Shown here: in pieces, positions 54,201-60,972 of the stretch | Position numbering within the stretch: the first letter of the stretch is position 1 | Layout of the letters: every line of letters begins with the position of its first letter | From: Rhodospirillales bacterium | Lineage (GTDB): Bacteria > Pseudomonadota > Alphaproteobacteria > Rhodospirillales > Shumkoniaceae | Length of the DNA stretch: 64,000 bases | Direction: 5' to 3' | Assembly: GCA_016776725.1 (NCBI GenBank) | Contig: JADHSV010000005.1 | Span: 1-64,000, forward strand | Position numbers and translations under genes: made by a program | Notes under the pieces: model-generated | What the model saw: the letters and a program-made list of their open reading frames with translations, nothing else | Told to the model about the DNA's origin: nothing | Databases searched by the model: none

Positions 54201-56567
54201 ATGCTGCTGCGGATGCTACGCGCCCGCTCCGAAGGCAGCGCATCGCCGTTACTGCCTTCGCTTTCATGGCTTCAAACCATGGACCGGCCCACCCTCGGAG
54301 CCGACCTTACCGCTGGCCTGACCGGTGCGTTGGTCATGCTTCCGCAGGGCGTGGCCTTTGCCATTATTGCCGGAATGCCGCCCGAGTACGGCCTTTACGC
54401 GGGCATGATTCCGGCCATCATCGCCGCCCTTTTCGGATCATCCTGGCACCTGGTCTCGGGTCCGACAACGGCGGCGTCCATTATCATCCTTTCCGCCATC
54501 AGCGCTTTTGCCGAACCGGGTTCCATAGACTACGTGCGCCTCGTGCTGACGTTGACGTTCATGGTCGGTGTGATTGAACTGGCCATGGGTCTCATGCGCA
54601 TGGGCGTTCTGGTCAATTTCATATCCCATACCGTCGCCATCGGGTTCACGGCGGGTGCGGCCATTCTGATTTCCGCCAACCAGATCAAACATTTTTTTGG
54701 ACTGGATATTCCCCGTGGCGCGCCCTTTTACGAAATCGTACGTATTCTCGCCAGCGACATTCAACTGATATCGCCCGCCGCGACTGTCGTGGGCGTCACG
54801 ACGGTGATTACCGGCCTACTTGCCAAACGCTATCTTCCCCGCCTGCCCTACATGATCGTTGCCATGGTTGCCGCCAGCGTTCTGGCAACTGTTCTAAATG
54901 GGTTTTCCGAGACCATGGTTCCAACCATCGGAGCCATTCCCTCGGGTCTGCCGCCGCTTTCTTCGCCGGAATTTTCCCTGGACGTTATTCGCGAACTTGC
55001 GCCGACGGCGTTGGCGGTCGCGCTTTTCGCACTGACCGAGGCGGTTTCCATTTCGCGGGCCCTGGCGATACGTAGCGGACAGCAGATCGACGGCAACCGG
55101 GAATTCGTCGGACAGGGCCTGTCCAATCTGGCCGGCAGCTTTTTCTCGGGCTATGTGGCGACGGGATCGTTCAATCGCAGCGGCCTGAACTACGAATCAG
55201 GCGCCAAGACGCCGTTGGCCGCGATTTCGGCCGGTGTATTGCTGATGCCGGTCGTTTTCCTTGTCGCCCCTTACGCCATTTATCTGCCGAAAGCCGCGGT
55301 GGCGGGAATTTTGTTTCTGGTCGCCTACGGCCTGATCGACATTCCCCATATTCGGCAAATTCTTAGATCGGGCCGATCCGAATCGACGGTCATGGCCGTT
55401 ACCTTTTTCGCGGTCCTGTTTGTTAATTTGGAGATCGCCATCTTCTCGGGCGTGATTCTGTCGCTTTTCTTTTACCTTAACCGCACGTCGCATCCGAACG
55501 TCGCCAGTCTGGTCCCCGATCCGCAGGAGCCGCGCCGTCGCATGACCACCAAACCGAACCTTCCGGAATGCCCGCAGATCAAGATCGTTCGCATCGACGG
55601 ATCGCTGTATTTCGGCGCCGTTTCCAATGTGATTGGAAAGCTGCGCGGCATGGAAAAACGAGGTTCGGCGCAGACCCATCTGGCCATCGTCGCTTCGGGC
55701 ATCAACTTCATCGACATGGAAGGGGCCGAAGCCCTGGTCAATGAGGCCCGCCGCAGGCGGAAGGCCGGCGGGCAACTTTACCTGATCGACCTGCACGAAA
55801 CCGTGGCCTACCAATTTGAACGCGATGGCCATATGGACGCCATCGGCCGCGAAAACGTTTTCGCTTCAAAAACCGCCGCCCTTGCCAACATTTACGCTCG
55901 CCTCGACCGTAATCCCTGCGCGACATGCACAAAGCGCATCTTCCGCGAATGCGATGCCAAGGCCTCGAAAAATCTTGCGAAGGAAGAACCCGTCGAAATG
56001 ATCAATACCGAAATTCGCGTCGCCAAACGCGCAGCCGCCGAGCCGATTTATTCCGATCCTCGCAATACCAAACCCTTGGAGCCCCGCCGCCCGCGGGTTC
56101 TGGCGTTGGTCGACTTCGATATCGCGGCCGATAAAACGGTCCGCGCGGCCGCCCAACTGGCAAAATCCGCCGGAGCCGAACTGGCGCTGGGCCATGTCGC
56201 CAGCAGCGACTGGAGCAGCGGCTACGACTTCGCCCCCGGGCTGGTTTCGGGCGACACCTTTACCGCCCTGCGCGGCTCCGCCCGCGCCCGCCTGGGCAGG
56301 GTCGCCGCCGAGGCAAATATCCAGACGAAGGCTTTACTGGCCGCAACGACGCCGGATCGAAGCAGGGGAATTCGCGAACTTGTCGGCGAATGGCGGCCTG
56401 AAATCATCATCGTCAACGCGCGGTCAAATTTCGATATCGCGGATAGGCCGTTCGTCGATCTCGACACGCCCTATGGAACGGTCCACTGCGAAGTTCGCAA
56501 GGTCGGAGGTGGGTTCCCCGAAACCTACGACCTCGAACCCGATTCCCTGAAATCATTGTCGAGCTAA
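54201..56567 (+). CDS. SulP-family anion transporter with STAS domain and C-terminal USP-like domain
   Basis: A 788-residue fusion. Residues about 25-430 are a SulP permease with 12-14 membrane segments (GLYAGMIPAIIAALFGSSWHL, VSGPTTAASIIILSAI, GSFFSGYVATGSFNRSGLNYESGA). A STAS domain follows at about 450-570 (FIDMEGAEALVNEARRRR), then a cysteine-containing linker (NPCATCTKRIFREC) and a universal-stress-protein-like domain (RPRVLALVDFDIAADKTVRAA). SulP proteins carry sulfate, bicarbonate or other anions, often with sodium or protons. The C-terminal domain suggests nucleotide control. The CxxC linker is unusual. Confidence 0.9.
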   Translation: MLLRMLRARSEGSASPLLPSLSWLQTMDRPTLGADLTAGLTGALVMLPQGVAFAIIAGMPPEYGLYAGMIPAIIAALFGSSWHLVSGPTTAASIIILSAISAFAEPGSIDYVRLVLTLTFMVGVIELAMGLMRMGVLVNFISHTVAIGFTAGAAILISANQIKHFFGLDIPRGAPFYEIVRILASDIQLISPAATVVGVTTVITGLLAKRYLPRLPYMIVAMVAASVLATVLNGFSETMVPTIGAIPSGLPPLSSPEFSLDVIRELAPTALAVALFALTEAVSISRALAIRSGQQIDGNREFVGQGLSNLAGSFFSGYVATGSFNRSGLNYESGAKTPLAAISAGVLLMPVVFLVAPYAIYLPKAAVAGILFLVAYGLIDIPHIRQILRSGRSESTVMAVTFFAVLFVNLEIAIFSGVILSLFFYLNRTSHPNVASLVPDPQEPRRRMTTKPNLPECPQIKIVRIDGSLYFGAVSNVIGKLRGMEKRGSAQTHLAIVASGINFIDMEGAEALVNEARRRRKAGGQLYLIDLHETVAYQFERDGHMDAIGRENVFASKTAALANIYARLDRNPCATCTKRIFRECDAKASKNLAKEEPVEMINTEIRVAKRAAAEPIYSDPRNTKPLEPRRPRVLALVDFDIAADKTVRAAAQLAKSAGAELALGHVASSDWSSGYDFAPGLVSGDTFTALRGSARARLGRVAAEANIQTKALLAATTPDRSRGIRELVGEWRPEIIIVNARSNFDIADRPFVDLDTPYGTVHCEVRKVGGGFPETYDLEPDSLKSLSS

Positions 56568-59535: not shown

Positions 59536-60456
59536 TCAATTAGTAATCGGCGTCCACTGACCCTGCGGAATTTGCTGGGGCGGCTGAACTGCCGGGGGCT
59601 GCGTTGCGCCGGGGAACTGAACTGTTGGCGCGGGCGGCTGCGGCGGGATTACCGGCCTTGCCACACGTGGTGTTGCGTCGGCAACGCGGGTTGCCTGCAT
59701 GGCATAGAACGGCTGCTGAGACATGGTCTGGCCGTTCGCGCTCGTGCGGGTCAGGCGCGATCCGGCGGCGTTGTCCATAAGTGATTTCCAAGTGGGCTGC
59801 GCCTGGGCGATTTCGCCTCGCAGGGCTTTCAGGAAACTGAGCGTGAACAGGCTGCCGCTGCCGGTAGCAGTCGAGGTTTCGCCGGGGATCGAGGACGCGC
59901 CGTTGACGTAACCGCGATAGCGCAGGAACAGCTCCTTGTATCCCGCAGCCGCTTTCGACGCACTTGCAGGAATTCCCTTTTGCTCTTCGCGCACCTGAAC
60001 GTTGACCACGTTGTTGCACGCATCCACCAGGGAAATGGCCAGCCGCGCACCCTTGTTGCGAAGAGTATCGGCAACCCAGCCGAAATCAATCACCCGGTCC
60101 GAATGAAAATAGAAATAGGGCCAGTCGCTTTTCTTGGGTGGCGTGCGGAAACCGTGGCCCGAGTAATAGAAGAAAACCACGTCGTCCGGCCCGGGAGCCA
60201 CGGAATTCACCGCGTTTTTGACGTTGTCGATGGTGAAATCGCGGCCCTTGAAAACACGGTCCGACAGGGTCATTCCGGTCGCCTGGGCGACGCGCTGGAT
60301 TTCGTCGCCGACGACGCTCAGATCGCGGGCCACCATTTGGCCGATGCTCTTGTCGTCGGTGTCGATAACGAAGATCGCATGCAGGGTGGCCGCACCGGCA
60401 GGCGCTGTTACTGAGAGCGCCAGAAGAACCGCTATCATCGTCCGCAACGTTTTCAC
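59536..60456 (-). CDS. Secreted caspase-fold (metacaspase-like) protease
   Basis: A 306-residue protein with a signal peptide (residues 1 to about 22, TAPAGAA) and a caspase-like p20 domain. The catalytic His101 is in FFYYSGHGF and Cys147 in SLVDACNN, both in the right sequence context, so the dyad looks intact. The C-terminus is a proline- and glutamine-rich tail (PPQPPAPTVQFPG). It should act in the periplasm or outside the cell, where few bacterial caspase homologues are understood. It is preceded after 12 bases by a small lipoprotein gene on the same strand. Confidence 0.88.
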   Translation of the reverse strand: MKTLRTMIAVLLALSVTAPAGAATLHAIFVIDTDDKSIGQMVARDLSVVGDEIQRVAQATGMTLSDRVFKGRDFTIDNVKNAVNSVAPGPDDVVFFYYSGHGFRTPPKKSDWPYFYFHSDRVIDFGWVADTLRNKGARLAISLVDACNNVVNVQVREEQKGIPASASKAAAGYKELFLRYRGYVNGASSIPGETSTATGSGSLFTLSFLKALRGEIAQAQPTWKSLMDNAAGSRLTRTSANGQTMSQQPFYAMQATRVADATPRVARPVIPPQPPAPTVQFPGATQPPAVQPPQQIPQGQWTPITN

Positions 60457-60468
60457 GGCGCCCTCCGA

Positions 60469-60972
60469 TCAATCCAGCTTGAACACGGTCTCGACAATTG
60501 CGCTCAGATTTGCCGCCACCGGATCGAAGTCCTCGACATTGTCATTCGAACCGAAGGCCCACATTTTGCATCCGAAGGCCACCAGCACGTCGGCCGACTT
60601 CGTCCCCGCATGGAAGCGAAAAACGTATTCGGGAACCATCACGCATTTCTTGGCGGCCTCGAAATCGTAACTGGCTTCATCAAGCACCAGCGCCTTGAAG
60701 GCGGCCATCTGGGCCGGAGCCAGATCGGCGCCGCGCGCTTTCCACTCGTACCCGGCAATCGCGCCTGGGCCGGTTGCGCCGGGCGGCATCAGGGAGGGCT
60801 TGAGCAGGAACGGCTCCACCCGCTCGGCGGTGCTGACCACATGGATGACGTCGGCGCCTAGAAAACCGCCCAGCCTGTCCTGGGCGACCGCGCCGCAGGC
60901 CACCAGCGTCATGACGCCGACAAGACCGGCGAGTTTCGATGAAAATTTCCAGAATGCGCCACGAAATTTCAT
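60469..60972 (-). CDS. Small putative lipoprotein paired with the caspase-fold protease
   Basis: A 167-residue protein with an N-terminal signal and possible lipobox (LVGVMTLVACG, Cys near residue 26). The mature part has CVMVPEYVFRFHAG and FGCKMWAFG, giving two cysteines that could form a disulfide. No known domain is recognised. ATG at 60972 is preceded by GGGGGAAACC; upstream codons in frame run into the permease gene. The tight spacing to the protease gene suggests a functional pair, for example an inhibitor, substrate or localisation factor. Confidence 0.72.
   Translation of the reverse strand: MKFRGAFWKFSSKLAGLVGVMTLVACGAVAQDRLGGFLGADVIHVVSTAERVEPFLLKPSLMPPGATGPGAIAGYEWKARGADLAPAQMAAFKALVLDEASYDFEAAKKCVMVPEYVFRFHAGTKSADVLVAFGCKMWAFGSNDNVEDFDPVAANLSAIVETVFKLD

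Follow-up and report, generated by a model that had tools for sequence, protein, structure and literature searches.

The C14 peptidase family (caspases, metacaspases and orthocaspases; PF00656) has in common with the protein studied here the fold, the His-Cys dyad and a Pfam score over the cut-off. Among bacterial caspase homologues, attention has gone mostly to those that act in the cytoplasm, in cell death or against phages. Proteases that are encoded together with an inhibitor are also known, as with staphopain and staphostatin, or with the Streptomyces subtilisin inhibitors (SSI). The caspase in our window (the whole stretch of 64,000 nucleotides from a Rhodospirillales bacterium that was analysed) differs from the C14 family at large in its predicted export, in an LHAI-type first strand, in a Pro/Gln-rich tail and in a dedicated partner encoded alongside it. 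With the staphostatin and SSI-type pairs, it shares the arrangement of a small beta-rich, exported or co-encoded protein beside a cysteine or serine protease; however, we found no sequence relation between those inhibitors and the window partner. An SSI-type likeness of the partner fold was rejected, as the six SSI entries among the 50 matches listed lay at noise level (Z 2.3 to 2.7).

The MALT1 paracaspase and the type I-III metacaspases are like the window caspase in having a D-x-C ahead of the nucleophile, together with an acidic helix 1 residue, which fits an Arg/Lys preference (PMC4357240). They differ in being cytosolic or of plant or eukaryotic origin, in their very low sequence identity and in having no such partner gene. 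A 2012 survey reported an N-terminal helix or putative signal peptide on many prokaryotic caspase homologues, and some prokaryotic metacaspases that share an operon with OmpA genes or genes of the cell surface (PMC3501461). The premise of an original prediction on this locus, that bacterial caspases are mostly cytoplasmic, therefore needs softening. The exported metacaspases of that survey resemble the window protein in carrying the caspase domain behind an N-terminal helix, possibly a signal peptide; in the sections of the survey drawn on here, no comparable partner family is named, and neighbours were classed by Pfam, whereas the window partner has no Pfam family (PMC3501461). The literature that we searched held no description of the partner family or of the caspase-partner pair. 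Exported bacterial caspase homologues, by contrast, are already known.

The caspase gene and its partner gene

From the letters of the window, the original prediction had proposed a secreted caspase-fold protease paired with a small lipoprotein. We re-found both genes at the positions it gave, together with the His-Cys dyad, the N-terminal signal, the Pro/Gln-rich tail and the gap of 12 bases between the end of the partner gene and the start of the caspase gene downstream (Table 1). On a reading of sequence and hydropathy, the caspase N-terminus is hydrophobic and runs into an Ala-rich, cleavage-like stretch before ATLHA. The match to Peptidase_C14 (PF00656) had an E of 4.4e-12 and scored 46.6 bits against a gathering cut-off of 21.4, with H101 and C147 at the dyad positions of the C14 family and in the same alignment columns in relatives. 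An AlphaFold2 model of the caspase domain, made with seven relatives, reached a pTM of 0.87 and a pLDDT of 84; its best solved match was human caspase-9 (VIA Z 18.9, rmsd 2.4, 186 residues aligned), and MALT1 gave a Z of 17.9. Every test run, on the sequence and on the predicted model, assigns the window protein to the C14 peptidase family (caspase-haemoglobinase fold). It is not of the EACC1-associated caspase type (NCBIfam NF047832), for which it scored 25.3 bits against a curated cut-off of 140. The PADLOC model PDLC02987, a generic caspase model for anti-phage defence that has no curated cut-off, matched over part of its length at 25.2 bits (E 2.2e-6).

The partner N-terminus reads as that of a lipoprotein, with a lipobox Cys after a hydrophobic signal and hence predicted lipidation; AVA-Q, right after LVAC, is a possible alternative signal peptidase I site. 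The window partner matched no family in Pfam or NCBIfam at E 1 and nothing in PADLOC, and when 22 members of the partner family were compared with Pfam and NCBIfam, LysM tails alone scored well. A model of the partner core, built from five rows, reached a pTM of 0.79 and a pLDDT of 80, with several core loops at low confidence. The closest solved fold was 4r7r (Foldseek E 6.5e-3; VIA Z 9.8, rmsd 3.4, 113 aligned), a putative Clostridium perfringens lipoprotein that has no assigned function and gave no sequence match. A second fold match was 4q0y (Z 6.4); these two are the matches above Z 5 named here, and absence of a family among the matches listed excludes nothing. Against the sequences of solved structures, the partner profile found nothing below E 0.43. 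We consider the features of caspase and partner to be beyond chance, because relatives keep them and AlphaFold2 gives the caspase fold.

Table 1. Features of the caspase gene and the partner gene, in window coordinates
Feature	Position	Strand	Basis
Caspase-fold (Peptidase_C14) protease gene, predicted exported, 306 aa, GTG start	59536..60456	(-)	ORF, Pfam, AlphaFold2, fold comparison
Signal-peptide-like N-terminus of caspase, residues 1-22	60391..60456	(-)	sequence + hydropathy
Catalytic His101 codon (YSGHG)	60154..60156	(-)	conserved alignment column
Catalytic Cys147 codon (DACNN), sole Cys of caspase	60016..60018	(-)	sequence
Pro/Gln-rich tail of caspase, residues 263-306, P or Q = 22/44	59539..59670	(-)	sequence composition
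GGAGGG, likely ribosome-binding site of caspase gene, precedes GTG	60461..60466	(-)	sequence
Partner gene, 167-aa predicted exported protein with lipobox, ATG start, no Pfam/NCBIfam family	60469..60972	(-)	ORF, Pfam, NCBIfam
Lipobox LVAC, partner residues 23-26	60895..60906	(-)	sequence
Partner Cys110 codon (KKC), one of two conserved cysteines	60643..60645	(-)	alignment
Partner Cys135 codon, second conserved cysteine; likely disulfide with Cys110	60568..60570	(-)	alignment

Elsewhere in the window (54201-56567) lies a gene for a 788-aa sulfate permease with a STAS domain and a weak universal-stress-protein-like C-terminus.

Recurrence of the two-gene unit in two phyla

The original prediction held that the two genes form a unit, and counted a failure to co-occur in other genomes as a refutation. 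It withstood this check: a gene-neighbourhood search re-found the unit, with the partner adjoining the caspase, in two further genomes of the order, in a gammaproteobacterium and in Bacteroidota. In a single-sequence search of 317 genomes of the order, all partner matches (3/3) lay beside a caspase gene, one in the window's own genome, one in a Rhodospirillales MAG (G004) and one in a genome from another family of the order (G122). The gammaproteobacterium, Thiomargarita (L006), was picked by its caspase alone and carries a partner gene directly upstream. The window unit has a CitMHS transporter gene and serC as its outer neighbours, whereas L004 has an OmpA-type gene there and L016 a Crp-like gene (read by eye); because these surroundings differ, the link is not accounted for by shared synteny, and the conserved thing is the two-gene unit, not the wider region. 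Few Alphaproteobacteria have the caspase subfamily: at E 1e-10 it was found in 1/190 genomes of the class, that of the window, and it occurred in 1/119 genomes of a gammaproteobacterial sample, Thiomargarita itself. A partner search of a sample of the phylum (398 genomes) returned the window and two noise-level matches only.

Beside the first Bacteroidota caspases examined lay small exported genes resembling diverged partners, and on a Bernardetia plasmid a clear partner gene lay downstream of the caspase. A plasmid search with the caspase gave one match, that of Bernardetia, and a plasmid search with a single partner sequence gave none, although the Bernardetia partner was present. As a partner that was there had been missed, the single-sequence partner search is too weak across phyla. 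Partner profiles were built from six seeds and then from four Pseudomonadota partners only. Run on 1241 ORFs, the Pseudomonadota-only profile recovered the Bacteroidota neighbours with E values from 1e-24 to 3e-4, against 0.5 for the best reversed decoy; it missed the caspase-adjacent gene L038, which was recovered only after iteration. A profile-profile comparison of Pseudomonadota and Bacteroidales partners gave a probability of 95 and an E of 2.6e-8.

Among 118 Cytophagales genomes, 21 had a caspase of this kind at E 1e-20, with 25 caspase genes between them. Partners numbered 15 in 14 genomes, 15/15 of them beside a caspase, with -16 to 407 bases between nearest matches; the 97 caspase-negative genomes had none (Fisher 2e-13). 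A caveat on this count is that 10/22 rows of the Cytophagales partner profile (A7) were taken from the same caspase-adjacent loci. The 119 Bacteroidales genomes held 11 caspase genes in 6 genomes; here a profile free of Bacteroidales rows, which missed the more divergent partners L008 and L038, found two partners, both (2/2) beside a caspase. The partner lies upstream of the caspase in Pseudomonadota, in Bacteroidales and in L079 and L089, and downstream in other Cytophagales. The two genes share a strand in every pair, and adjacency is kept despite the reversal of order. Overall, the pairing of caspase and partner is real and old, spanning two phyla.

Some Bacteroidota loci have further features. 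A row of exported genes, of ~200 and 270-300 aa, follows the caspase in L007 (7143-8668), L008 (7152-9040), L038 (2661-3799) and L005 (7167-8733), and those scanned in L005, L007 and L008 had no Pfam family over the cut-off. In L056 (5386-6000) and other partner-linked Cytophagales caspases, an extra exported N-terminal part of ~200 aa stands before the caspase core. The N-terminal extension of the Bernardetia caspase had been a candidate for a partner fusion; it was rejected, since the partner profile finds the partner as a separate next gene, and no caspase-partner fusion was found among the loci examined.

Caspases also occur without a partner, as do 10/25 in Cytophagales, that of Siphonobacter (L005) and L003, a second copy in the window's own genome. 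This second copy (L003 / L012; G000:C38, 30472-31980) is a putatively exported caspase with an intact dyad and a C-terminal PAN/apple domain. Poribacteria (G1058 and G1059; L036, L040-L055) have nine related exported caspases per genome, many in tandem and several with His or Cys lost.

A three-row partner profile matched 12 genomes among 385 Alphaproteobacteria. Partner-like proteins without a caspase comprised two strong matches, L018 and L019 (both E 1e-28), and seven weak, more distant matches; the two remaining alphaproteobacterial matches, at E 0.005-0.007, were treated as noise. None of the genomes of these nine proteins (0/9) had a window-type caspase, nor was there one within ±1.5 kb, in a check that ran without an internal positive control and with a profile that finds both G000 copies in a separate search. 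The partner domain is therefore not exclusive to caspases. The nine proteins (L018 1483-1995, L019 1480-1995 and L020-L026) appear exported and carry the partner core C-x3-P...RF...DVLLS-x-C. By sequence, these caspase-free relatives are members of a wider unnamed domain family.

Conserved cysteines, lipid anchors and the catalytic dyad

The sole invariant residues in 15 non-Bacteroidales partner rows are Cys110 and Cys135 (window numbering). Over 22 partner rows, both cysteines are present in 18 and neither in 4, which are Bacteroidales, and no row has a single one; this both-or-neither pattern is as would be expected of a disulfide. We also read the N-termini of 26 distinct caspase-linked partners by eye, setting aside one L076 pattern match that lies before the likely start, and found a clear lipobox in 13, a borderline one in 5 and none in 8. 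L016 has the two swapped, with a lipobox on its caspase but not on its partner. Lipid anchoring, as predicted from these N-termini, is optional and possible on either member.

Two partners (L064 and L089) carry LysM tails, one partner has two partner domains, and the second Thiomargarita caspase carries an OmpA domain, all of which fit the cell envelope. The original prediction of a periplasmic protease with an anchored partner is thus borne out in part: the N-terminal signals on both proteins, the LysM tails and the OmpA domain point to an exported, periplasm-facing location, whereas anchoring as the defining property is not supported, given the partners free of a lipobox. In Thiomargarita L039 (97-2349 and 2365-3147), the OmpA-fused caspase has a possible beta-barrel tail and lies directly downstream of another exported caspase-like gene.

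We then compared the catalytic dyad in 61 distinct caspases. It was intact in 28/28 partner-linked caspases vs 20/33 without a partner (Fisher 9e-5), an association that is not phylogenetically independent because each label needs ~4 changes on the tree. The count took in caspases at E 1e-18 or better, with weaker ones left out and identical or contained copies merged, and its 28 partner-linked members include two second members of tandem arrays; the dyad was read from alignment columns, for five rows via the best-scoring domain. The direction of the association is the one to be expected if the partner goes with an active enzyme.

Possible control by the partner and predicted specificity

We give about even odds to the proposal that the two genes form a protease-partner module outside the cytoplasm in which the partner controls the protease. 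Slightly short of even, in our judgment, is the chance of a more specific version: a new dedicated partner family in an ancient two-gene module of Pseudomonadota and Bacteroidota, in which an exported protein with a disulfide would inhibit an active periplasmic caspase or bring about its maturation. Both proteins would be exported by their N-terminal signals, after which the partner would fold around its two cysteines, bind the protease and control it as an inhibitor, a folding chaperone or an activity switch. A substrate or envelope stress would release the protease from this control, and the Pro/Gln tail of the caspase may serve as a flexible spacer. Protease activity, control by the partner and the physiological role of the pair are all things that we infer.

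Other readings of the pair have to be weighed against control by the partner. One, in line with the anchored partner of the original prediction, is that the partner serves chiefly to anchor or adapt the protease to the membrane or cell wall, keeping it at the peptidoglycan or outer membrane, and the lipoboxes of the window and L004 partners, the LysM tails and the OmpA domain are what such an anchor would show. We nevertheless consider this unlikely, as the 8/26 partners without a lipobox and the swap in L016 indicate that anchoring is not the conserved property. With anchoring not conserved and the two cysteines conserved, a regulator (inhibitor or chaperone) is favoured over a mere anchor. 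Pairing only with dyad-intact caspases would fit a substrate as well as a regulator, and several partner core loops were modelled at low confidence, as might suit a partner that is a substrate, or a sensor cleaved by the protease, in an envelope proteolysis cascade. However, the conserved elements are the two cysteines and a folded core rather than an exposed Arg/Lys loop, and no conserved cleavage site was seen by eye, making this reading rather improbable.

We hold it to be quite improbable that the genes are a killing pair, with the caspase as an exported toxin-like effector and the partner as its immunity protein. An exported enzyme with a small exported neighbour would suit such a pair, and one family member resembles a putative T6SS immunity lipoprotein model, at a noise-level E of 0.017; but the neighbourhoods read held no secretion-system, trafficking or polymorphic-toxin gene, the pairing persists over large distances without toxin-tip diversification, and the PADLOC likeness is to a generic caspase model only, at 25 bits. 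Least probable of all, we think, is an incidental adjacency, in which two exported genes with unrelated functions share an operon for expression reasons. Partner-like proteins without a caspase and the many caspases without a partner are consistent with it, yet the arrangement recurs over two phyla with its order reversed and its outer neighbours different.

A pair that is conserved and exported, and whose protease keeps its dyad, offers a testable handle on periplasm-facing caspases. If inhibition or chaperoning is what the partner does, an exported bacterial caspase would have in it a natural control protein, and the nine relatives without a caspase could indicate a wider class of exported regulators.

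The alignment also bears on specificity, and so on a possible place of the window caspase in subfamily C14B, the metacaspase/paracaspase type that has acidic S1 residues and takes Arg/Lys at P1. Asp145, two residues before the catalytic Cys, and Asp45, in helix 1, are invariant in 8/8 caspase rows; Asp145 aligns with the Asp of the MALT1 D-x-C, and Asp45 was placed by its helix 1 position only. The S1 pocket is lined by Asp365 and Asp462 in MALT1 and by Asp95 and Asp211 in TbMCA2 (PMC4357240). Because Asp145 and Asp45 appear to sit where the acidic S1 residues of metacaspases and paracaspases lie, the window caspase probably cuts after Arg or Lys.
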